This document shows positions 1,441-25,900 of a DNA stretch of 64,000 nucleotides, piece after piece. Under the pieces are notes generated by a model. It was not told the origin of the DNA, ran no database searches, and saw only the letters and a program-made list of their open reading frames with translations. The position numbers were made by a program, and so were the translations under genes. Position 1 is the stretch's first letter, and each line of letters begins with the position of its first letter. Origin of the DNA: Antedon mediterranea (Eukaryota > Echinodermata > Crinoidea > Comatulida > Antedonidae); contig NC_092673.1 of assembly GCF_964355755.1 (NCBI RefSeq), forward strand, positions 29,083,001-29,147,000. The letters run 5' to 3'.

Positions 1441-3726
1441 TTACGGTGTTTTCATAGATAGAACTTTTCTTTTTTTGAAAATTCCATAATACCACAGTAA
1501 TAATGTTGCAATTGAGAGGCTGTACCTGTATGCAAGAAATTGAGTATAAAACATTAATAGGATGTATTCCCATACTTCTGTTTAGGTGCTGGCATGAACT
1601 TTAAATTTCTCCCTTTTCACAAATTCAAAACCATTAATAAAGCATCATATACATTTGATTATATTTTAAAACCATCGGCTTAAAAGAAACTTACCAAGTT
1701 ATTATGTAATTCAAATGTTCGTTTCTTAATGTGACTCGCGTTTGCCCCCCTATAGGTCCTCCAGGAATACTGCTGTCTGAAAAGAACAAAGTTTTTAAAA
1801 CTTAAATCTGGGACGTCTTTAAAACACTTGTATGGTAAATTTGTATAAGTGTATGTAATCTTTGGTTACAAACCTAAATCGTTGTCGATTAGTATTGGGC
1901 TAGCTTCAGAATATACTGCCATCGCTTGATGATCACGGAAATGCCAACGATTATTTTTGACATCATTATCTGGTAAAAATGGTGCTCTCTATCAAAATGA
2001 GAAGAAGTTAGAAATAATATGACGAATGTATGAATAAATAGCCTGGTGGCACATTAGCTTTTTTTTTCATTTTAAACTTTGTTGGCTTATATACAAATGT
2101 TTTTCTTTTTAACAAAAATGATATTTGGAATAGTTTGATTTATGTTAATATATTATATCTAGGTATAAAGTAAATATGAATACTAAATTTGTGAGGTAGT
2201 ACAGTTTCCAAAACTAACCTTTTCACTAGACCTAACAATCCCTACAATTGTAACTTCATCTGTTATCTGTCCGCCAACTCTTGTCTCTGGTTTTACTCGA
2301 TTTCTTGGGACCCATCCACGATTTACTAAAATAGTTTTACTAAAGTATATAAAAAAAAAACTGATAAATCATAACCAAACATGTTTATTATTGAAATCAA
2401 ATTAGACTAGAACCCATATATTTGTAGGTACCAAAGGTTTCCCAATGTTATACTATAATTGTAAAAGAACATAAATCTCAGCCTTTTTTTGTTGTTATTT
2501 CATACGCATCCAACAGCGAGTAATTCGTCAATTAAACAATGGATAAACTATTTTATTATTGTGCTTATAAACTAAAGTCTTATTTGAGGCTTAGGGAGTG
2601 GAGTTACACCTAGGGAGTAGGTTAGGATTGAACCCTGGATCTTGGGATTGGAAGGCAAGCATGTTAACCACCAAGCTATAGCTCCACTTTGTTTTTTTAA
2701 AGCCTACCCTAGTTCTGTGCAGTGAAATGGTGTAATGACTTGAGCACCAGATTCACCCTGACTTGAGAACAGACTTCCTCCTTGGTTCTCCATATTGTTC
2801 GTCACAAGATGTCTTGGCATCAACAACATCTCTTTGCTGTGCTCAAATCTTCCCTTTACACTCACTCTGCAATACTCCAGCTCTGCTAGTTTACCTTGGC
2901 TGCAAATTCCAACCACAATTTGGATTTAAAATATATTTAGGGTGCAACAATTTCTAATTTCAAACCCATAACATTTATATAATGATAAACAGCTAGACAT
3001 TTTAAATAATGAAAATATTAAATAATATCTGTCACTTAATTTAAAAAAAACCAAAATAATACTGCAGAATTTGACAATGGCACCCCTTTCAGTATACTAT
3101 AGACACCTCTCCCAGTATATATTAGGCATCCATCGAACCACCCCACGCCATCCCCAACACTCTCAGAATAATATATAACTATTTACTCTAAACATAGTGG
3201 TACTGGCAAAGCTGTGGTTTTATTATGCAATTCTTCTATCAGGTTTAACTTCCATTTTCTTCGTTTTACTTGCCAAGTTCCCAGACAGAATGTAATGACT
3301 GGTATACTAAGCAACAAGTTGCCATAAGGCGATGGTTCTTCACTTTTTCGTCCATTTGAGGAATATCGGCAAATAGTGTGAGTTTTTTTTGCCTGCAAAA
3401 AGAATTATGATTCATTATAAATTAAATGCAACATATAAATAGTTTTTAGTTTAGATATATTGTTTTTAGTTTTAGATTAAAACAGAAACAGAACTATAGA
3501 TTAGCGCCACGGATCTTTGGTCGGTACTACAGTATTTGAGAGGATGTATTGTAAAAAAGAGACCATTCTTAAAGTGCAATATTATTATTGCACATCTAGC
3601 GTTTCATATCTTGTTTAAACATTTTCCATATTCTCAATGAAATGAATTTTCGCGACATGACCAAACACATAAATAGCATTTAACCTGCATTAATATTCGC
3701 CGTAAAGAACACCTTAGAAGCTCCAT
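1441..3726 (-). CDS. SURF1: SURF1, cytochrome c oxidase assembly factor
   Basis: SURF1 is an inner-membrane mitochondrial protein that helps build cytochrome c oxidase around subunit 1. Seven coding exons were spliced by eye: 3726-3685, 3392-3187, 2899-2708, 2339-2219, 1988-1874, 1776-1695 and 1525-1441. They give 843 nt, or 280 residues (human about 300). The first exon encodes a short basic N-terminus suitable for import. Family hallmarks are the first membrane segment with [12 protein letters not shown] (about residues 45-62), the FEHSKE and TPFHCTELG segments, [25 protein letters not shown], and a second membrane helix before the C-terminus. Every junction keeps phase. It is divergent from PFDN6, with 507 bp between the start codons. 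An intron may follow the stop codon. No inactivating change is seen. Confidence 0.95.
2590..2692 (-). mobile_element. tRNA-derived SINE head, in SURF1 intron
   Basis: Read on the minus strand, this has a tRNA-like A box (gcttggtggttaacatgc) followed by a B box (gggttcaatcc), the internal RNA polymerase III promoter of tRNA-derived SINEs. It lies just downstream of the third SURF1 coding exon. Confidence 0.55.
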
Positions 3727-4233
3727 ACTGTATAATTGTCAAACCTGTCTCTAGCTTAACCAAAAAACAACTTAAATATCAAGTTTTTAGAAGACTGATC
3801 CGCGGATCTCATATCCACGACTGTCAATCAAACATTCCGCTCGAGTAAAAAAAAGTGTTATATCTCGAGCGAATCAGCTTCTCCTATGAAAAGCAAACAT
3901 CGTCAATGTTAAATGTTGAATAAATAAAGCAATAATAGAGTTAGTAGATTGTGTAATGCCATTTCTTTTCCATGTATTCTTAGAATTTAATCATATTTAT
4001 ATTTTTTTTTACTGAATAAAATAAAATGGTATGCCAAGTTAGCTCTTCGAAGGTTAACAGTTACGAAATGCATGTATTGCGTGCCATAGTTTATGACTTT
4101 TATTCCATCAAAACTCGCACCCAACCAACTCGGTCACGCGTCCAACCGGCAAGAAGTAAGCCGGCCCCGGCCAGAATCAAACCACTCGAAAACAGAACAC
4201 GTGAGAACCAGGCTAGGCTAAACCTAAGACAAA
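3727..4233. promoter_or_regulatory. Bidirectional SURF1/PFDN6 promoter region
   Basis: The 507 bp between the two start codons must hold the 5' UTRs and promoters of both genes. An 8-bp inverted repeat (cgctcgag at 3838-3845, ctcgagcg at 3864-3871) encloses two CTCGAG E-box-like sites. No TATA box is obvious in a suitable position. An open frame from 4026 runs through the PFDN6 start in another frame and looks like chance. Confidence 0.5.
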
Positions 4234-7200
4234 ATGGGATCGGAAAAGGAACAACAAGCTATTCAGAAGAAAATGCAAGAGGAAGTGAATAAATTGAGAG
4301 CTGTGCAATCAGGTAAATATGCAGTAGGCCTAGGCTAGAGCCTAAAAGTTCAAAATTCAGACCAGAAAAAGTGTTTCTTCCTCACAAGCAAATACACTAG
4401 GAGGCCTAGGCCTAGGCCTCCTAGGGGATCCAGTCAAGTCGCCCCATCGCAAAGTCGCCCCATACAAAGTCGCCCAATACAAAGTCGCCCCATCGCAAAG
4501 TCGCCCCAAAACAAAGTCGCCCCGGCACAGTCGCCCCATCGCAAAGTCGCCCCATTACAAAGTCGCCCCATCGCAAATTCGCCCCATCGCAAAGTCGCCC
4601 CAACGCAAAGTCGCCCCATCGCAAAGTCGCCCACGGTTTTAATCATATTGGTTGCGTTTGATATCGATTGCGTTGTTACTTTGGTCGCGCTAATGTCGTA
4701 TACAGTAGTTTATCCTATATACATAATTTGTGTTTTAATTTTTATTTTACAGGTTTTAATGGAGTGATGTGCTTTTTAAAAATCATTAAAAAAATAGTCC
4801 CTTGTTTGAAAGTTCTAAAAAGATTATCCCTGATTTATAGTTTCGAAAATGTTAATTTAATATGATTTTAAAATTAGTTACCAGAGCCACAATTACGAAT
4901 CTTTCTTCAACCTACGCGTGGATACCAGCTAATTTTTTAGGATAATATAATAAATGTATAAATGTGTAGTAGCCTAGGCCTTCCTATAGATTTACAGTAG
5001 TTAAAACAATAACAGTGTTGTAAGACAATGAGTGTTATAGGCTACTTATTGATCATTTTACATTTATTGACAAGTTATGTGTCTTAATTTTATAATGACT
5101 TTTCAAAATAAAGAAATAAAAAAAAAGGATTTCATCGCCGATATGATTGTTTTACATGCAGGTATTTTAGTAAAATTAAAACGCTACATTTTGACCATGG
5201 AAAAACCATCGTACAGTATCGTGTGCGTGTTTTTTAAAAAGGGGAATCCCCGACGGTCAGCAGAAAGACGTAGCAGCTGAGAGGAAACAGATACCAGAAG
5301 GCGCAGCTCCGATTGGTTTCAGAGAATGTTTCAGATGGCGAGTCGCCTTTTATTCAACAGCACAATGATCATTTTACTGAAGAAATTCTTTTCAAGGTTA
5401 GGCCTAGAACATTCTAATTATCATGCCTAATAAATATCCTCATATCGGGTATTTATTTAATTTTAAATTAAACAAGACAGTGAAGAGGCACGGAATAATA
5501 CGTACACGGACGTACGACGAATACACACACGCACGTCATCATTTACGACATATAGTGGTGATATGATGCAATTTTATAACGGATATAATGATGGGATTGC
5601 CTTTCCAGGCTTACAATCAATGTTCATTACGTAATACTATGTATATAATAGTAAACTGAATGTTTATAAATAAATTGTTTTACGTAATTTATTGCATATA
5701 AAATAAAAGACACAGACGTAGCCTACGTTTCCTATAAAATATTTCACATTTAAATAATTATGTAGGCCTACTGCTAAATGACATTATGCTGGAATATTAT
5801 AATCTTAAACTATGTTTACAAATTATTAATATAGGTCTAGTAATAATAATACATATTCATCGACCAAAGTAAAAATAATCTAGATCGTATAACATCATTT
5901 TATCGCGACTAAATTTAAACGCGACCGATTTCGAACGCGACTGATATCATCGTAAAACTCCGGCGGGGTTTCCCCATTTTCAGATGGTGCGTTGTAGTAC
6001 GACGACAACGGCGGAGTAATTACGGGGGTTTCCCTCTGGTAAGCTAGCACGTTAGTGCGACCGCGGAGTGATTAGTCGGGTGCTTCCTCTCTGATGATGG
6101 GGGTGCGTGCCGATCGTGTGACCTGAGACTACATGGCGGGGCTTCCCCTTTTTATGCCTACACGTTCCGTGTTATTTTGTGTATCATTGCGACATTTTAC
6201 GCACTTGTAAACTATTTTTTAACGTTTTGGGGCGACTTTGCGATAGGGCGACTTTGTGATGGGGCGACTTTGCGATGGGGCGACTTTGCGTTGGGGCGAC
6301 TTTGCGATGGGGCGACTTTGCGATGGGGCGACTGTGTCGGGGCGACTTTGTTTTGGGGCGACTTTGCGATGGGGCGACTGTGTAAGGGGCGACTTTGTAT
6401 GGGGCGACTTTGCGATGGGGCGACTTGACTAGCATCCCCTCCTAGCTCCCCTAGCTAGTACTAGCGATGGTAGGTGGTCCCGATGGTAGCCTGTAGTAGT
6501 AGGCTAGGCTAGAGTAGGGGCGTAGGCCTAAATAAAGACAGATCGATGCTGTTATGTACCCTTTCAGGACTTCTACTACTAGGCCGGGCTAGGTATATAC
6601 CAGTTAGCCTAGCTAGGCCAAACGGCGTAGCCTCTAGGGCCAGGCCTACATACATTTAGCCTATTATATAGGCTAGGCCTAATTAATGTTGATAACATTT
6701 TATGAATAAATAACAGAAATCTATTCTATAAAAGAGAAATCGAAAAAAATAAATTAAGAGAGAAAAGAAGGAGACAGAATTCAGAAAGCAGAAATTAAAC
6801 TACGCCTAGCTAGCTAGGCCGGATGCTACTAGTCAAGTCGCCCCAAAACAAAGTCGCCCCAAAACAAAGTCGCCCCATACAAAGTTGCCCCATACAAAGT
6901 CGCCCCATCGCAAAGTCGCCCCATCGCAAAGTCGCCCCATCGCAAAGTCGCCCCATCGCAAAGTCGCCCCATCGCAAAGTCGCCCCAAAACAAAGTCGCC
7001 CCATCGCAAAGTCGCCCCATCGCAAAGTCGCCTCAACACAAAGTCGCCCCATCGCAAAGTCGCCCCAATGATACACAAAATAACACGGCATAAAATGGGA
7101 AGCCCCACCATAATGTAGTCTCTCAGGTTACACGATCGGCACGCTCCCCCATCATCAGCAGAGAGGAAGCCCCCGACTAATCACTTCGCGGTCGATCGCA

Positions 7201-16964: not shown

Positions 16965-19900
16965 ATGATGGAGCAAGTGAAGAAAGAGAATGAAGATGGA
17001 ACCAAGGATGTCGCCATCATCAGAGGTTCATTCATCAGTTCAGAACCATACTTAACATTCAACGTAAAAGTGAATGTTGTTTTAGTTTTCTTTACTATCT
17101 TAGCAGCTTGGTTGAGGATTGTTGGCATTGAAAACCCACGAGGAGTAGTGTAAGTTTTGGTTGGTTGTTTGTCTATAGCAAAGCAAACATTTATTATTTA
17201 AATTATTACATTTATCTGTAGTTTAGTTGAGGATTCATTTAATTTTATTTGAGAATAAAATTGTTACTACTCTACTATTCTTGATGAAAATAATGTGGTG
17301 TTTTGACTACAACATTTTACATTACCCCCTTTTGCCCTCCTCATTTTCCATTACATTTACGTGTTGTATATATCCAAGCATTGAATATTATCGTTACTTT
17401 TATCTTTGCAGATTCGATGAAGTACATTTTGGTCAATTTACAAGTCTGTACATCAACAGGATCTTCTTCTTCGATGTCCATCCTCCACTGGGGAAACTTC
17501 TGTTTGCACTCACGGCCTACATCTCTGGTTTTGACGGAAACTTTCTTTTTGATAAAATTGGTGAAGGTACAAAACTATTTATAAAAAACACTAAAACCAA
17601 ATGTATCATGGCACCAACACTCATTCCTTCAAACAAACGTATGCTTTTCGACAAAGATTTTTCCCCCCTACTGATGTATTTTGAGAACATAAAGATTGGT
17701 ATATTATTATTGTTGGCCTATCTACACTTAGCATTTAGGCCAGACCACACTGTATTGTGCATGTTTGTAGTGGGTACCAGTCCCTCATAAATGAGTCTGA
17801 ATGACATTCTCAGCACTTTTTACATACCGGTACCCATTTCAGTCAACTAGGTGCGGAGGAGCAGGGTGGATAACATTGTCTATTGTTTTTATGATATAAT
17901 ACATGTTTGCCTTTCTTGCAGCATATCCACCATCCATACCAGTGTGGCATCTTAGATTGCTTCCTGCCATATTTGGTAGTCTTCTCATCCCTGCTGTATA
18001 CCAGTTGGTGCTAGCTGTTGGGTACTCACATGGTGCTGCTACACTGGCTGCATTTCTTGTTGTATTTGGTAAGTATGCCTGGCCATTATCATTATTCTTT
18101 ATCCAGTTTAGATATATCATTTTTAAAGATAATCTAATTGTTAATTGAATAGGCAATAACCTGTAACACAAGATACTCCTGTTCTTCAAATTCATGTAAC
18201 ATTTTATTCATTGCAAGATTTGATTTGTGTAGTACTGAGCCCTCAATATATAAAAAGGTGAAGCCCTTTTTATACCTTTTCTATACTGTATAGGAGATAG
18301 AATAATATAGTGGGAAAAAATGGTCAAAAACGTTACACGGATGACAAAGTTTTCAAATTTTGCACATATGTTCACTTGGACATACAGATTAAAAAAATCA
18401 CTGTAGCCAAGAAAAAAAATGTATTTTATGACCATATTTGGAGTATTTTCAAAATGGCCGCCAAAACAAAATGATGGTCCATATCTTAGTAACCGGTAGG
18501 GGTACAGAGTTCATTTTAGTGTTAAATTGCTTAGAACACATATGTTTCTATTCACTCTAATACAACATTTTATTAGAAAATGGCCGGAATCATCATTTCC
18601 GGAATTGTGACCTTTGACCCTAGTATGGTCATATCTCGATAACTACTGACAGTAGAAACATGAGGTTGGTCTTAAAATATTCACAATATACATGTTAGTA
18701 TTTGGTCTAACGAACTATTTTTCCCAAAAGTGACTGGAAATCATAATATTGACCTTTGACCCGATAACCTCAAATTTCGTTACCGAATGCGCATAACATC
18801 AAAATATTGGGCTTAAATTGTCAAAAATGTATATTTTTGTATTAATTAAGGTAATGACTGAATTTGTCAATTGACCAGAAGTAATGATATTAACTTTTGA
18901 CTTAAATTTTGTTTTATATCACTACAACATTGGCAGTAAATCGTCAAACACTTATTTTTCACGCAATACATTGTTTTCTCAACAAATTTAAACAATTACT
19001 TTTTCATATGATATGTTTGTTTAGAATGATTCAGATTGTTGTATCTAGAGATATGGCCTACCTGGTTATGTGTAGAGGAATGTTACATTTTACTATGCGT
19101 GATTACATTTCCAGATTATTTTCTGCAAGTTGTAAGCTTCAATAAATTAATATAACTGTTTTGCAGTGTATTATATTTACAGTTTACACTTCTTCATTTT
19201 ATATTTCAAACCTCAGTTATTAAAAAATAAAATAAATAAATAATAATAATAAGTATTAACTATGTCTTAGAAATAATAAATTCTGACACGGATCGTCTGT
19301 ATTCAATTACGAGTAATATTATCTGGGACATTTGCAGCTGCACAGTTCTGTACAAGGGAGGTTGGATTTGGCACATTTGCAAGTCACACAACCACGGTCA
19401 GATTTGCAGCCACATTTGATAAGTTCATTGCAGGCCTTGGCTGCTTCTGGTTTAGTCATCCAAACTGGCTTCCAATGTGTGTCTTCTAATGTCCAACCCC
19501 AATCTTCTGGAGTAGGAATAGTTGGTTCAGCATTCTGACAAGTGGTCCATATACCTCCTTGATATATGGCTCTTTTCACATGTTGAAGTAATGCATCCTA
19601 CAATATAAATGTAATATAATGTACAAACAATGCTGTTTAGTTGAATAAAAAAAAGTATGCACTAAGTATAAGTTTAATTGTATTCCAACCATTCAATTTT
19701 AATTACCTGGGTGGGTGGAACATGAGCAATATCCTTGTTCTTCTGTGAAAACATATTTCGACGGGCTTCATTTACTGATAATGATATGCTGCTTTTGTTG
19801 TATAGAAGAATAGTGAGCCGCTCAATATGTTTGAAGTTGAGAGAAAGACAGTCAACTTGTTGAAAAGGATGTCTGTACATGGAAAGAAATGCCTCTGTTG

Positions 19901-22900
19901 CCTCTGGAAATGATTTCCATGCTTTCCAAGCACTCTTCTTACTCTTACCGAAAAATGAGGATGTAGTGTCACAACCTGAAAAAGCATGGAAAAGTGGAAG
20001 GGCGCATGCCATGCTTTCACCTAGATGTCTACACATGTTGTTGATGTTATAGTAACAGAAGTGATTACCAGTGCCGAATGCAACCCACAGTTTCAGTTCT
20101 CAAACTGTAAAGTTGCTGCCTCTCTGCGTATTCCTAGGTTATCAGCTGATGGCTGTTGGACTATGCTAATTCCAGTCCCATGAAATGATCCTTGTGCTGT
20201 GGTAGAAGAAGGATTATAGTCTAAATTGTCTAATGCTCCAATTACTGCCAAACCTTTCCGAAGATTAGACGGACACACAATATCATCAGTCTTGAACTGC
20301 TTACACATCGAGTAAGTTAGAGATTCCTCAAGTTGAAGGATTCGTTTGTAGTTGATGCTTACTTCTGGTATTGGTGTGAATAAGCATCCCAATGTAAATT
20401 GGTAGAGGTGGTTCTCGGTTTAGGTTATGACGCTCAGTAGGCCTACCAGTTTCTTCTCTTACCTTCTTCTTGGAGTTATAAGAAATCAATTGGGATATTG
20501 TAAGGCATGTCTGTGAATTGTCAACGTGCTCCTTCGTGTTTGGCCCATATAAAATCATAGCTATCAGCATTTTTAAACTTGGTGATACCATCTCTTGGCA
20601 ACGAGGAGGAAATGCCCCTTTGAACTGAAAACCATCAGTCATTTGAAAAATATCTTCTCTGCAGATTTTTGCAACCTTTGCAAACAACAGCGCTTCTTCT
20701 TCATACTGTACGATGCACATCTTTCCACATTTGATATATGGCCTCTTCAAAAATTAAAACACATTTGTATCCATCAAAATGCTCATGTAGGCCCATGGTT
20801 TCGAAATGTTGTAGAAGGATTTCTTTCAAGCGCGTTTTATTAAATGATATATTCTCTCCAAATTGATGAAGACGATCTTCAAACCAAGAATGTAAATGTG
20901 ATAATTGAAATAACAATGTTCCCTCTTCTACTAATCCCTCTACATAAGAAACCAATTCTGCAAACACTCTGCCTTTCACACGATCTCTTTCTGTTTTAGA
21001 AAAAGACAAAGTATTGCTTTGATGTTTTCTATATCGATTTCTAAATTGCGTCAAACAATCCATGTGGTATTTTGCTGCAATAGCTACTAAATCACCATTC
21101 GAAATAGTAGCAAGAAGATCAAAATCATTCATTTTTGTCGCCATTCTTCGAAGTATTTTTGTCAGTGACACATTTGAGTATTCATGAAGCTTTTGAAATG
21201 TATCTTTTTTGCAGAAAATACAGTTATTTCTGCTAGGACTTGCAACTTTCTGTCTTTTTGAAGACCGCTCTTTCGTATCTATGTTTTCTTTTACTTGATG
21301 TTTTCTTAACCTTTCCAGCTTAGTGTTGTTGAACTTCAAATGGCAAGAATGATGCCACGAGGCACCGTTTTTAATAAAAGCCTCCGGTGTACCATGGTCT
21401 CCATATTCTAATGAAAGTGGTGAAGCTTGTAGTTGCTTAAAGCCGTCTACATTGTTTAAAAACGCTTCGTACACACATCTAGCATTAATGTTTCCTCGTT
21501 TTTGTGGACACCTTAAACTTTCCGATGTAACAGACTGGCATATAATGCATCTTGACCAGTCCATTGTAAGTGTTTACTTACACCTAGTCTAGTCATAGGG
21601 CTAGTGTCTCGAACATAAATTCTGTGAAATATATAGAGTAAACTTAAACAAATAACAATCCTGATAGTTAAAAAATAAATATGAATGTTTTTCTTTTATT
21701 CATTTTCTATCATTCATGTTTTAACCAAAATACGTGTAAGAAGCAATTCCTGTACCTATTGGTCCTAAACCTATAGCCTACATCAATTATTTAAAGTTAT
21801 TAAAAAAAATTGTAATTATTTAAATTATTTAAAGTTAAATTTAATAATGATGTGTAATTGCAATATAATTTTTCACAAAACTACACTTGGGACTCCCTGT
21901 AACTAAGCATTTGCTAGGCCTATGAGAGGCATCCGCTTTGCATTGCCACAGTCGTTTTCGCCGTGGAGGTATGCCTAGCAACGAGCCTGTGTTAGCCTAG
22001 CCTAATTGATATTCAATTTAAATGCTTAAAAGAAACAAGAAAGTAAATTAATGGTAACCTAATGCTTTAAAGTGGTAAATCAATATATATATTTAATAAA
22101 AACACTTGTTTGAAATCAACAACTGCTTTATAAGCATAAAAATACTTACCACTTGGCAATTATCCACCTGTCAACACGTTTGACTTCATAAACTTTTAGC
22201 CAATCAGAATGCCGGATTTTATGAATACTCATTTTGGAGGGAAATCTTTGTCTAGGTAATACTATAGTAATTGATTGTATATAAAAGGGGTTCTATGGAC
22301 CTTAAATAATGAAATCATTGTTATTATTAGTATTTATTATTCTCAAATAGAAACTATTATAACAAATATTGTGATTTATTTTAACTGGTCTTTGGAATGT
22401 TAAAAAATAGATTATGTCGAAAAGGCACTGCTTCTCTATAACACTGAAGTTAGTTGTAGTGATATAAAACAAAATTTAAGTCAAAAGTTAATATAATTAC
22501 TTCTGGTCAATTGACAAATTCAGTCATTACCTTAATTAATACAAAAATATACATTTTTGACAATTTAAGCCCAATATTTTGATGTTATGCGCATTCGGTA
22601 ACGAAATTTGAGGTTATCGGGTCAAAGGTCAATATTATGATTTCCAGTCACTTTTGGGAAAAATAGTTCGTTAGACCAAATACTAACATGTATATTGTGA
22701 ATATTTTAAGACCAACCTCATGTTTCTACTGTCAGTAGTTATCGAGATATGACCATACTAGGGTCAAAGGTCACAATTCCGGAAATGATGATTCCGGCCA
22801 TTTTCTAATAAAATGTTGTATTAGAGTGAATAGAAACATATGTGTTCTAAGCAATTTAACACTAAAATGAACTCTGTACCCCTACCGGTTACTAAGATAT

Positions 22901-25900
22901 GGACCATCATTTTGTTTTGGTGGCCATTTTGAAAATACTCCAAATATGGTCATAAAATACATTTTTTTTCTTGGCTACAGTGATTTTTTTAATCTGTATG
23001 TCCAAGTGAACATATGTGCAAAATTTGAAAACTTTGTCATCCGTGTAACGTTTTTGACCCTAAGGCACCCCACTAATATGTATACATGACCCTGTACTTT
23101 TCATGCAGTATTGACAGACAGGAGATTTTGTGTTGATTATTAATAAGTTTTTAATTCAGCATAGTAGGTTGTAAATTACATGTTATTTTATAACACCAAC
23201 CCTGAAATAGAAACATGATGGTAACTGAAATTGTGTGTGACAGATACTGAAACTCTTTTTCTATTGACTCTTCTTCTGACATCATCTTCTTGTTGTTTCA
23301 GAAAACACGTTGATAATACAGTCACGGTTTATATTGATTGATTCTATGCTGTTGTTCTTCAATGTTCTCTCTGTGTTATCATTACTCAAATTCAAACAAC
23401 AGAAACACAGGTAAATACAATATTCTATGCTGTTGTTCTTTAATGTTCTCTCTGTGTTATCATTACTCAAATTCAAACAACAGAAACACAGGTAAATACA
23501 ATATTCTATGCTGTTGTTCTTCAATGTTCTCTCTGTGTTATCATTACTCAAATTCAAACAACAGAAACACAGGTAAATACAATATTCTATGCTGTTGTTC
23601 TTCAATGTTATGTCTGTGTTATCATTACTCAAATTCAAACAACAGAAACACAGGTTAATACAATATTCTATGCTGTTGTTCTTTAATGTTCTCTCTGTGT
23701 TATCATTACTCAAATTCAAACAACAGAAACACAGGTAAATACAATATTCTATGCTGTTGTTCTTCAATGTTTTCTCTGTGTTATCATTACTCAAATTCAA
23801 ACAACAGAAACACAGGTAAATACAATATTCTATGCTGTTGTTCTTTAATGTTCTCTCTTATCTGTGTTATCATTACTCAAGTTCAAACAACAGAAACACA
23901 GGTAAATACAATATTCTATGCTGTTGTTCTTTAATGTTCTCTCTGTGTTATCATTAGTCAAATTCAAACAACAGAAACACAGGTAAATACAATATTCTAT
24001 GCTGTTGTTCTTTAATGTTCTCTCTGTGTTATCATTACTCAAATTCAAACAACAGAAACACAGGTAAATACAATATTCTATGCTGTTGTTCTTCAATGTT
24101 CTCTCTGTGTTATCATTACTCAAATTCAAACAACAGAAACACAGGTAAATACAATATTCTATGCTGTTGTTCTTCAATGTTATGTCTGTGTTATCATTAC
24201 TCAAATTCAAACAACAGAAACACAGGTAAATACAATATTCTATGCTGTTGTTCTTCAATGTTCTCTCTGTGTTATCATTACTCAAATTCAAACAACAGAA
24301 ACACAGGTAAATACAATATTCTATGCTGTTGTTCTTCAATGTTATGTCTGTGTTATCATTACTCAAATTCAAACAACAGAAACACAGGTAAATACAATAT
24401 TCTATGCTGTTGTTCTTCAATGTTCTCTCTGTGTTATCATTACTCAAATTCAAACAACAGAAACACAGGTAAATACAATATTCTATGCTGTTGTTCTTCA
24501 ATGTTATGTCTGTGTTATCATTACTCAAGTTCAAACAACAGAAACACAGGTAAATACAATATTCTATACTGTTGTTCTTCAATGTTATGTCTGTGTTATC
24601 ATTACTCAAGTTCAAACAACAGAAACACAGGTAAATACAATATTCTATGCTGTTGTTCTTTAATGTTCTCTCTGTGTTATCATTACTCAAATTCAAACAA
24701 CAGAAACACAGGTAAATACAATATTCTATGCTGTTGTTCTTCAATGTTATGTCTGTGTTATCATTACTCAAGTTCAAACAACAGAAACACAGGTAAATAC
24801 ATTAATTGTGATCAATCTGTATGCTGGATTAATAATAATAATATTTGTTCTTATATAGTGTTTATTGCAGTTTCTAGGCGCTTCACATTATTACCAGTCA
24901 TTTTTTTTTATCATCAAATGTATGGAAACATACTCCCATAATGCAGCTAGTAATTAGCGAAATTTTGCATAGGTTTGATCCCTTTTTTACAGCATACAAA
25001 TTATTTATTGAACCTCGCACATCTACATCATTATATTCTATCCCCATTATATTATCCCTCCTGTGTTCCTTCCCACCCCACCACTTCTATCCATTCATTG
25101 CTATTTTTATACTTTTTCCCTCCTTGACATTTTTATTTTTTATTTTATGTCTTTAGGCAATGTGGCTGAGGATTACCAATAGTAAATTAATCACTGTCCT
25201 ATCAGATAAGTGGTAATTTTGTGAACCAGTTCACCAGATAACCCCCTACTCTTCTTAAATAATGAACTATTTAAATTATATAATTCATTAGTTTTGCCTG
25301 ATTTTACATATTGTTGTGAAGTCTGGGGTAATACCTTTAAAACTAATTTAAATTGTTTATACATATTACAAAAAAGGCACTCAGACTTGTTATGAAAGTC
25401 CCCATAGTACACCAGTCCAAGTAAACCAATTTTTTATTTTTTTAAAACTCTTGATCTTTATAATTTAATAAAACTATATACCGTTTCTCTAATGCATAAA
25501 GCTTTTCATAACTTACTCCCAGCGATTGTTCAAAATAATTTCATTTCATGCTCAGCTGTCCACGATAAATATACCAGACAAAAACACACAATTTAAAAGA
25601 ACCACTCAAAAATCATTAAGTTTGTACTCTCTGAGAAAATTACTCTCTGAGAAAACTATCTGTTTTTTGTTGTTAAAATGAAAAAAAAGGAGTGTTTGCA
25701 TTTTTTTTCTTAAAAGTAACATCTTGTTTGCCTATGCCCTTGTGCCTTTTTTCATATTTATATACTGTTTTGTAACAGGGGGTTTCCATTCTTTCATTTT
25801 TGTAATGAATATTTATGTATGTTTATGTTTTTTATTGTGAATGGAAATAAAGAAACAAACAAACTGGGTTCTTTAAAGTGCACACAGGTTATAACTGTGT

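Follow-up and report, generated by a model that had tools for sequence, protein, structure and literature searches.

Locus organization and borders of the element

A 64,000-nucleotide stretch of the genome of the crinoid Antedon mediterranea (contig NC_092673.1, positions 29,083,001 to 29,147,000 of the forward strand), hereafter called the window, contains a mobile element of 4,768 bp at positions 18308–23075. The element starts with TAGTGGG and ends with CCCCACTA, and its termini, TAGTGG and CCACTA, are flanked on both sides by ATA (18305–18307 and 23076–23078), a 3-bp target-site duplication (TSD). Two terminal inverted repeats (TIRs) enclose a minus-strand gene that encodes a GCDTTS sequence and a 17-residue motif. 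With a probability of about 0.9 in our estimation, the element is an AcademX-type DNA transposon copy that inserted recently into an intron of a protein O-mannosyltransferase (PMT) family gene, carries internal deletions, and is non-autonomous.

The inverted arms (18322–18928 and 22453–23059) differ at only 2 of 607 positions, which the repeat finder rounds to 100%. Including the tips, as located by repeat search and copy comparison, the left TIR covers 18308–18928 (plus strand; a tip of the LONG type, described later, with a small deletion) and the right TIR covers 22453–23075 (minus strand; ending in GGCACCCCACTA). The near-identical TIRs of about 620 bp reported in a preliminary description of this DNA are therefore real. 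The same description placed the borders at 18309 and 23074, whereas both true ends lie one base outside these positions. The insertion site is flanked by two plus-strand exons of the PMT family at 17924–18067 (E = 3.4e-8) and 23304–23408 (E = 9.7e-9; the coding parts were searched in both cases), so that the position within an intron, also described previously, is supported from both sides.

The length of the duplication should be noted. A 5-bp duplication, AATAT, had been proposed, and the flanks of the window copy do match exactly over these five bases, because the bases adjoining the element happen to prolong the 3-bp match. The candidate fits the window copy only; in the other seven complete copies the match is limited to 3 bp, and all eight have only TAG...CTA and the 3 bp in common.

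Separately from the element, an 81-bp unit is repeated in 18 tandem copies with 96% matches at window 23341–24801. The array starts within the PMT exon, and its unit carries the 3′ end of the exon and the splice donor, so that the end of the exon is present in many copies.

Sister copies and natural empty sites

A genome search with one arm gave at least 55 matches; 40 of 656 first-look candidates were scored, and the counts are thus lower bounds. The TIRs accordingly recur throughout the genome. Sixteen arm-matching loci (L001–L016) were taken, seven of which have both ends and make up eight complete copies together with the window copy. All eight have TAG...CTA ends and identical 3-bp flanks, namely ATA in the window, TAT in L001, TAA in L002, TAG in L003, ATT in L004, TAC in L009, TAA in L012, and CAA in L014, and in none of the eight are the four bases adjoining each end identical on both sides. 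L005, L006, L008, L010, L015, and L016 have a single complete end, no tip was found in L007 or L011, and L013 is a diverged relative with approximately 79% identity. Fragments of the gene are found in five of the eight complete copies, while the gene is absent from L009 (1,670 bp), L012 (926 bp), and L014 (414 bp). The preliminary description had proposed to check whether every intact-ended copy carries the same gene and a 5-bp duplication; for both features the answer is negative.

Two copies lie in tandem arrays whose neighboring units serve as natural empty sites. In the L004 array, four neighboring units run uninterrupted across the insertion point with 3–6 differences per 40 bases, up to 6 being allowed in the comparison. 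The joined flanks of L014 match two neighboring units, extending 13 and 17 bases past the junction, and the matched stretches are 93% and 84% identical, respectively. In both arrays, TAG/CTA is where the borders fall. For the window insertion, a genome search with the joined flanks matched nothing but the two flanking halves in the window, and no empty allele was found elsewhere; the borders are thus supported by empty sites at L004 and L014.

Predicted domains of the encoded protein

The preliminary description referred to the GCDTTS proteins of animal genomes as uncharacterized. In L004, the gene is represented by two long overlapping frames of 743 and 381 amino acids. A further 14 loci with GCDTTS genes from other families (L017–L030) were taken with their flanks and one more copy. 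Alignments of 10 proteins, one from L004 and nine from among these 14 loci, were made for the C-terminal part (A1) and the central part (A2). Two of the 10 rows in A2 cover the later half only, and the L026 row in A1 ends soon after D265.

In A1, seven acidic residues (D48, D89, E176, D178, D202, D204, and D265, the last being the Asp of GCD), K97, and R104 are invariant in all 10 proteins. The arrangement of the acids corresponds to the catalytic pattern of FEN1 and EXO1. The AlphaFold2 model of A1 has a predicted local distance difference test score (pLDDT) of 80 and a predicted template modeling score of 0.81. When the model was compared with known structures using VIA, which re-ranks the candidates of Foldseek itself and is not an independent search, all 50 matches listed were nucleases of the FEN1/EXO1/XPG/XRN type, the best being human EXO1 (Z score 12.0, 240 residues aligned, root mean square deviation (rmsd) 3.9). 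Judging from the model and the alignment, the C-terminal part is predicted to be a nuclease domain of the EXO1/FEN1/XPG type whose last catalytic Asp lies in GCDTTS.

The model of A2 (pLDDT 75.7) is best matched by the P element transposase in VIA (Z score 11.1, 311 residues aligned, rmsd 4.8). The best 25 rows are all transposases, RAG, or integrases, with Hermes, ISCth4, PFV integrase, RAG1, and Transib following the P element. A first Asp strand (D-N-x-D, in which either Asp may be catalytic) and a second Asp (VxxDQ) are conserved in all eight rows covering them, and D437 and E441 are conserved in all 10. A DDE transposase domain of the RNase H-like fold is therefore predicted upstream of the nuclease domain. 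The full gene most probably encodes an N-terminal Cys/His region, the DDE domain, the C-terminal XPG/FEN1-like nuclease with GCDTTS, and a Cys-rich tail, an arrangement covered by the same estimate as the AcademX assignment. The preliminary description had proposed to look for an RNase H-like or other nuclease fold in the family protein, and both are found among the predicted folds. It had also taken the GCDTTS gene for the cargo, perhaps the transposase, of the element; the gene appears to be the element's own transposase gene with a DDE domain, but GCDTTS itself belongs to the nuclease part and the RNase H-like domain is separate and upstream.

Comparison with Pfam gave few matches. Nothing significant was found for the gene pieces of the window, and five open reading frames (ORFs) from sister copies gave only a sub-threshold match to DUF6589 and one match at chance level. 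With A2, DUF6589 was matched at E ≤ 1 in six of the 10 members; of six members searched singly, only L024, with its transposase core (2378–4435), passed the DUF6589 cut-off (29.8 versus 27 bits). The L024 match suggests that DUF6589 is a DDE transposase domain. No helicase family was present among the Pfam matches at E ≤ 0.1 of five ORFs of 1064–1555 amino acids.

The damaged gene of the window copy

In the window, the gene is divided into several minus-strand pieces. The N-terminal coding piece with Cys/His clusters (20701–21564), assigned from its reading frame and by copy comparison, is followed by a second coding piece (20328–20750), which a small indel puts out of frame with the first; the matching stretch is open in L003 (410 amino acids). 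The next frame (20093–20419) contains the first DDE strand pair, from DNLD to the 17-residue motif, and the one after it (19674–20099) contains the C-terminal XPG/FEN1-like part, including an 11-residue motif with the putative last catalytic Asp; both were assigned using the alignments and models. The latter frame continues into an intron (GT..AG, 19598–19706) that was read from the sequence and is supported by uninterrupted homologues, and the exon ends at 19707. The last exon (19319–19597), encoding the Cys-rich C-terminus, is joined on behind PPTQ, in agreement with the uninterrupted L028 reading.

Compared with L004, the window copy is missing stretches of 2,256 bp and 35 bp, with microhomologies of 3 bp (20097–20099) and 5 bp (20357–20361) at the respective joints, the latter deletion shifting the frame. 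According to the alignments, the second Asp and the Glu of the DDE domain and six of the seven nuclease acids are lost. The window copy is a deletion derivative and non-autonomous: because of the two losses and the small indel, it cannot make the protein. The two frameshifts noted previously do reflect broken frames, but the damage is larger than they imply.

The internal deletions vary among the copies. A copy retaining every part of the gene was not seen, although unassembled stretches or search misses could hide one. The N-terminal piece is found at ≥90% identity only in the window, L002, and L003 and as a fragment in L011 (all 29 candidates were scored), and most of the transposase core is missing from L002 and L003. 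Since a copy with all parts was not seen, the movement probably used the protein of another copy or another individual, which makes the mobilization in trans considered in the preliminary description likely.

Ends of other GCDTTS families

In 11 of 15 loci from other families (L017–L030 and the C5 copy, L031/L032), the two ends could be placed. Identical 3-bp flanks are found in nine of the 11: CTA in L018, AGA in L019, TTT in L021, CTA in L022, ACA in L024, CAA in L026, AAA in L029, AAT in L030, and CCA in the C5 copy. GCDTTS genes elsewhere in the genome are thus also bounded by transposon ends of the TAG...CTA type. All accepted ends begin with TAG, and how this triplet was obtained should be noted. 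In L017–L021, L023, L027, L029, and L030, it was read, partly by eye, where the arm or copy alignments stop. In L022, L024, L026, and the C5 copy, it is present by construction, the search being limited to inverted 14-mers starting with TAG; in each of these four, the sole exact TAG pair has a 3-bp duplication, and the borders of L024 and the C5 copy lie within 2 bases of the point where these two copies stop matching each other. A control search with all start triplets, in which low-complexity words were skipped, gave 63 exact inverted 14-mer pairs in five regions. Five of these have matching 3-bp flanks, namely the four TAG pairs and one other in the L022 region. All nine loci from L018 to L026 contain uninterrupted GCDTTS frames of 1,064–1,555 amino acids, and on this basis some GCDTTS families may be active now or may have been until recently.

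Similarity among copies and swapped tips

The two arms differ at 2, 2, 3, 2, and 3 of 607 positions within the window copy, L001, L002, L003, and L004, respectively, and arms of different copies among these five differ at 0–5 positions. In blastn alignments of the window with L001–L004, the arm pieces are 99.4–99.8% identical and the interior pieces 99.0–100%. The TIRs had been described as much better preserved than the gene, but in terms of substitutions this is not clearly so. The comparison points to a recent spread of the family in which the arms are no special case, and the near-identical copies elsewhere in the genome agree with the recent movement proposed for the window copy.

Each of the eight complete copies has one LONG and one SHORT tip, which differ in length by approximately 10 bp. 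The LONG tip is on the 3′ side of the gene in the window, L001, L003, L004, L009, and L010, while the two types have traded places with respect to the gene in L002 (285–4763), L005 (5704), L006 (2012), and L008 (8294) as compared with the window (18308/23075). The swaps suggest interior flipping or arm exchange, and they are what speaks for the view, also raised in the preliminary description, that gene conversion rather than recent movement made the arms near-identical. However, arms at different loci are as alike as the two arms within a copy, so that gene conversion is not needed to explain them, and the interiors are similarly alike. Recent spread explains this similarity, and we regard gene conversion as a very improbable source of it, even though some exchange or flipping is indicated by the tips.

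Relationship to AcademX and other transposons

The nuclease of AcademX is XPG-like. According to an excerpt of PMC10045372, AcademX has a TSD of 3 or 4 bp and AcademH one of 9 or 10 bp, a difference seemingly linked to the nuclease encoded by the former and the helicase encoded by the latter. The same excerpt credits the AcademX lineage of the Academ superfamily to Kojima 2020; part of PMC9587614 lists Academ among the superfamilies with a DDD/E transposase, and a 2010 description of Academ in Repbase Reports is cited in a portion of PMC4455052. The present family resembles AcademX in the predicted DDE transposase domain, in the predicted FEN/EXO1-like nuclease with no helicase seen in the five long ORFs, and in the 3-bp TSD (8/8 copies of this family and 9/11 of other families). 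Because these testable features match the published description of AcademX, the family is very probably of a known kind and not, as had been proposed, an undescribed type of transposon.

The other candidates fit less well. AcademH shares the superfamily name and the DDE transposase, but it encodes a helicase and has the 9–10-bp TSD (excerpt of PMC10045372), whereas no helicase was detected in the ORFs mentioned above and the flanks agree over 3 bp, the four bases adjoining each end being identical on both sides in none of the eight copies. The P element, the best structural match to the DDE part, is only 8% identical to it. It has an 8-bp TSD and is not known to carry an XPG-like nuclease, in contrast to the 3-bp TSD and predicted XPG-like domain of the present element. 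The C-terminal part resembles EXO1, FEN1, and XPG in predicted fold and catalytic-acid pattern, but the identity is approximately 14%, the part is joined to a transposase domain, and its nuclease activity is a prediction of the model. CACTA/EnSpm elements have the termini 5′-CACTA...TAGTG-3′, opposite in orientation to the 5′-TAGTG...CACTA-3′ of this element.

Several results weigh against the AcademX assignment. The element represents a family of this genome with TIRs of about 620 bp and is likened to AcademX by published description, not by reference Academ proteins. Neither Foldseek on its own, nor Pfam and PDB sequence searches for the nuclease part, nor the PDB search for the transposase part gave a significant match. 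For the A1 model, the best E value in Foldseek was 1.1e-3, with Rat1 and Rad2 at 1.1e-3 to 1.4e-3 followed by unrelated proteins. Among PDB sequences, the A1 profile had EXO1 as its top match (E = 0.11), in an alignment that includes GCD and, at a very weak level, D...K...R; the nuclease ORF had no match among PDB sequences, and A1 matched six unrelated weak Pfam families, each in one member. For the A2 model, the best Foldseek match was an unrelated protein at E = 0.11, RAG1, ISCth4, and Transib appearing only at E ≥ 0.7, and the A2 profile matched only ribosomal proteins in the PDB sequences. The ends are not uniform either: the flanks mismatch in two of the 11 other-family loci (CGA/TTG in L023 and TAG/GGC in L027), L017 and L020 have one located end each, L028 has inverted repeats without placed tips, and no TAG ends were found in L025. 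In L025 (C10:8463388–8469929), an inverted repeat of approximately 70 nucleotides, 90% alike, brackets the gene and begins with AAATCAGG as located. Finally, the 952-bp deletion of L004, whose sequence is present in the window, has a microhomology of only 1 bp.

The reliance on a description without Academ reference proteins leaves room for an undescribed superfamily that resembles AcademX in layout only (DDE domain, nuclease, and 3-bp TSD). Literature searches found no paper on GCDTTS or DUF6589, which would fit such a superfamily, and nothing on-topic joining Academ with XPG; PMC12730594 and PMC4298943 yielded no useful information on Academ. Against this, the testable features of AcademX are all found here, and we consider a separate superfamily improbable. 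The complete ends without the gene in L009, L012, and L014 and the TAGTG...CACTA tips could instead mean that the TIRs are those of a different transposon, such as a CACTA-like one, in which a GCDTTS gene of host or foreign origin travels as captured cargo. Such a capture is scarcely credible: the GCDTTS gene has a predicted DDE transposase domain of its own, the rule of TAG...CTA with 3 bp also holds for other GCDTTS families whose TIR sequences differ, and the ends of CACTA run in the opposite direction.

Possible mechanism and implications

For an AcademX-type element, the insertion may be pictured as follows. A transposase from another copy would bind the arms of about 620 bp and pair both ends, and its DDE center would cut the element out and join it to the target. 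The XPG/FEN-like center, whose nuclease role is proposed from the model, might cut or trim the other strand or a flap. Insertion into a target cut with a 3-bp stagger, followed by gap filling, would leave ATA on each side, and interrupted gap repair after excision could produce the internal deletions, two of which lie at short microhomologies.

A more specific proposal can be made from three parts. The RNase H-like DDE center of AcademX would cut and join one strand; the fused FEN1-like center would cut the second strand or a flap and in this way set the stagger of 3 bp; and AcademH would have swapped the nuclease for a helicase, giving duplications of 9–10 bp. This two-nuclease scheme is tentative, and that all three parts hold together is rather unlikely. 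If it is true, the animal GCDTTS proteins and at least some DUF6589 proteins would be machines of this type or the products of host genes that descend from such machines.

The hallmark of TAG...CTA ends with a 3-bp duplication allowed the ends of four elements without a detected long TIR to be placed. One genome that contains several families, some with long open frames, provides a setting for testing what the nuclease domain does. The GCDTTS genes of this genome gain a predicted molecular identity as a DDE transposase with a flap-endonuclease-like domain, and the same identity probably applies to at least some DUF6589 proteins.

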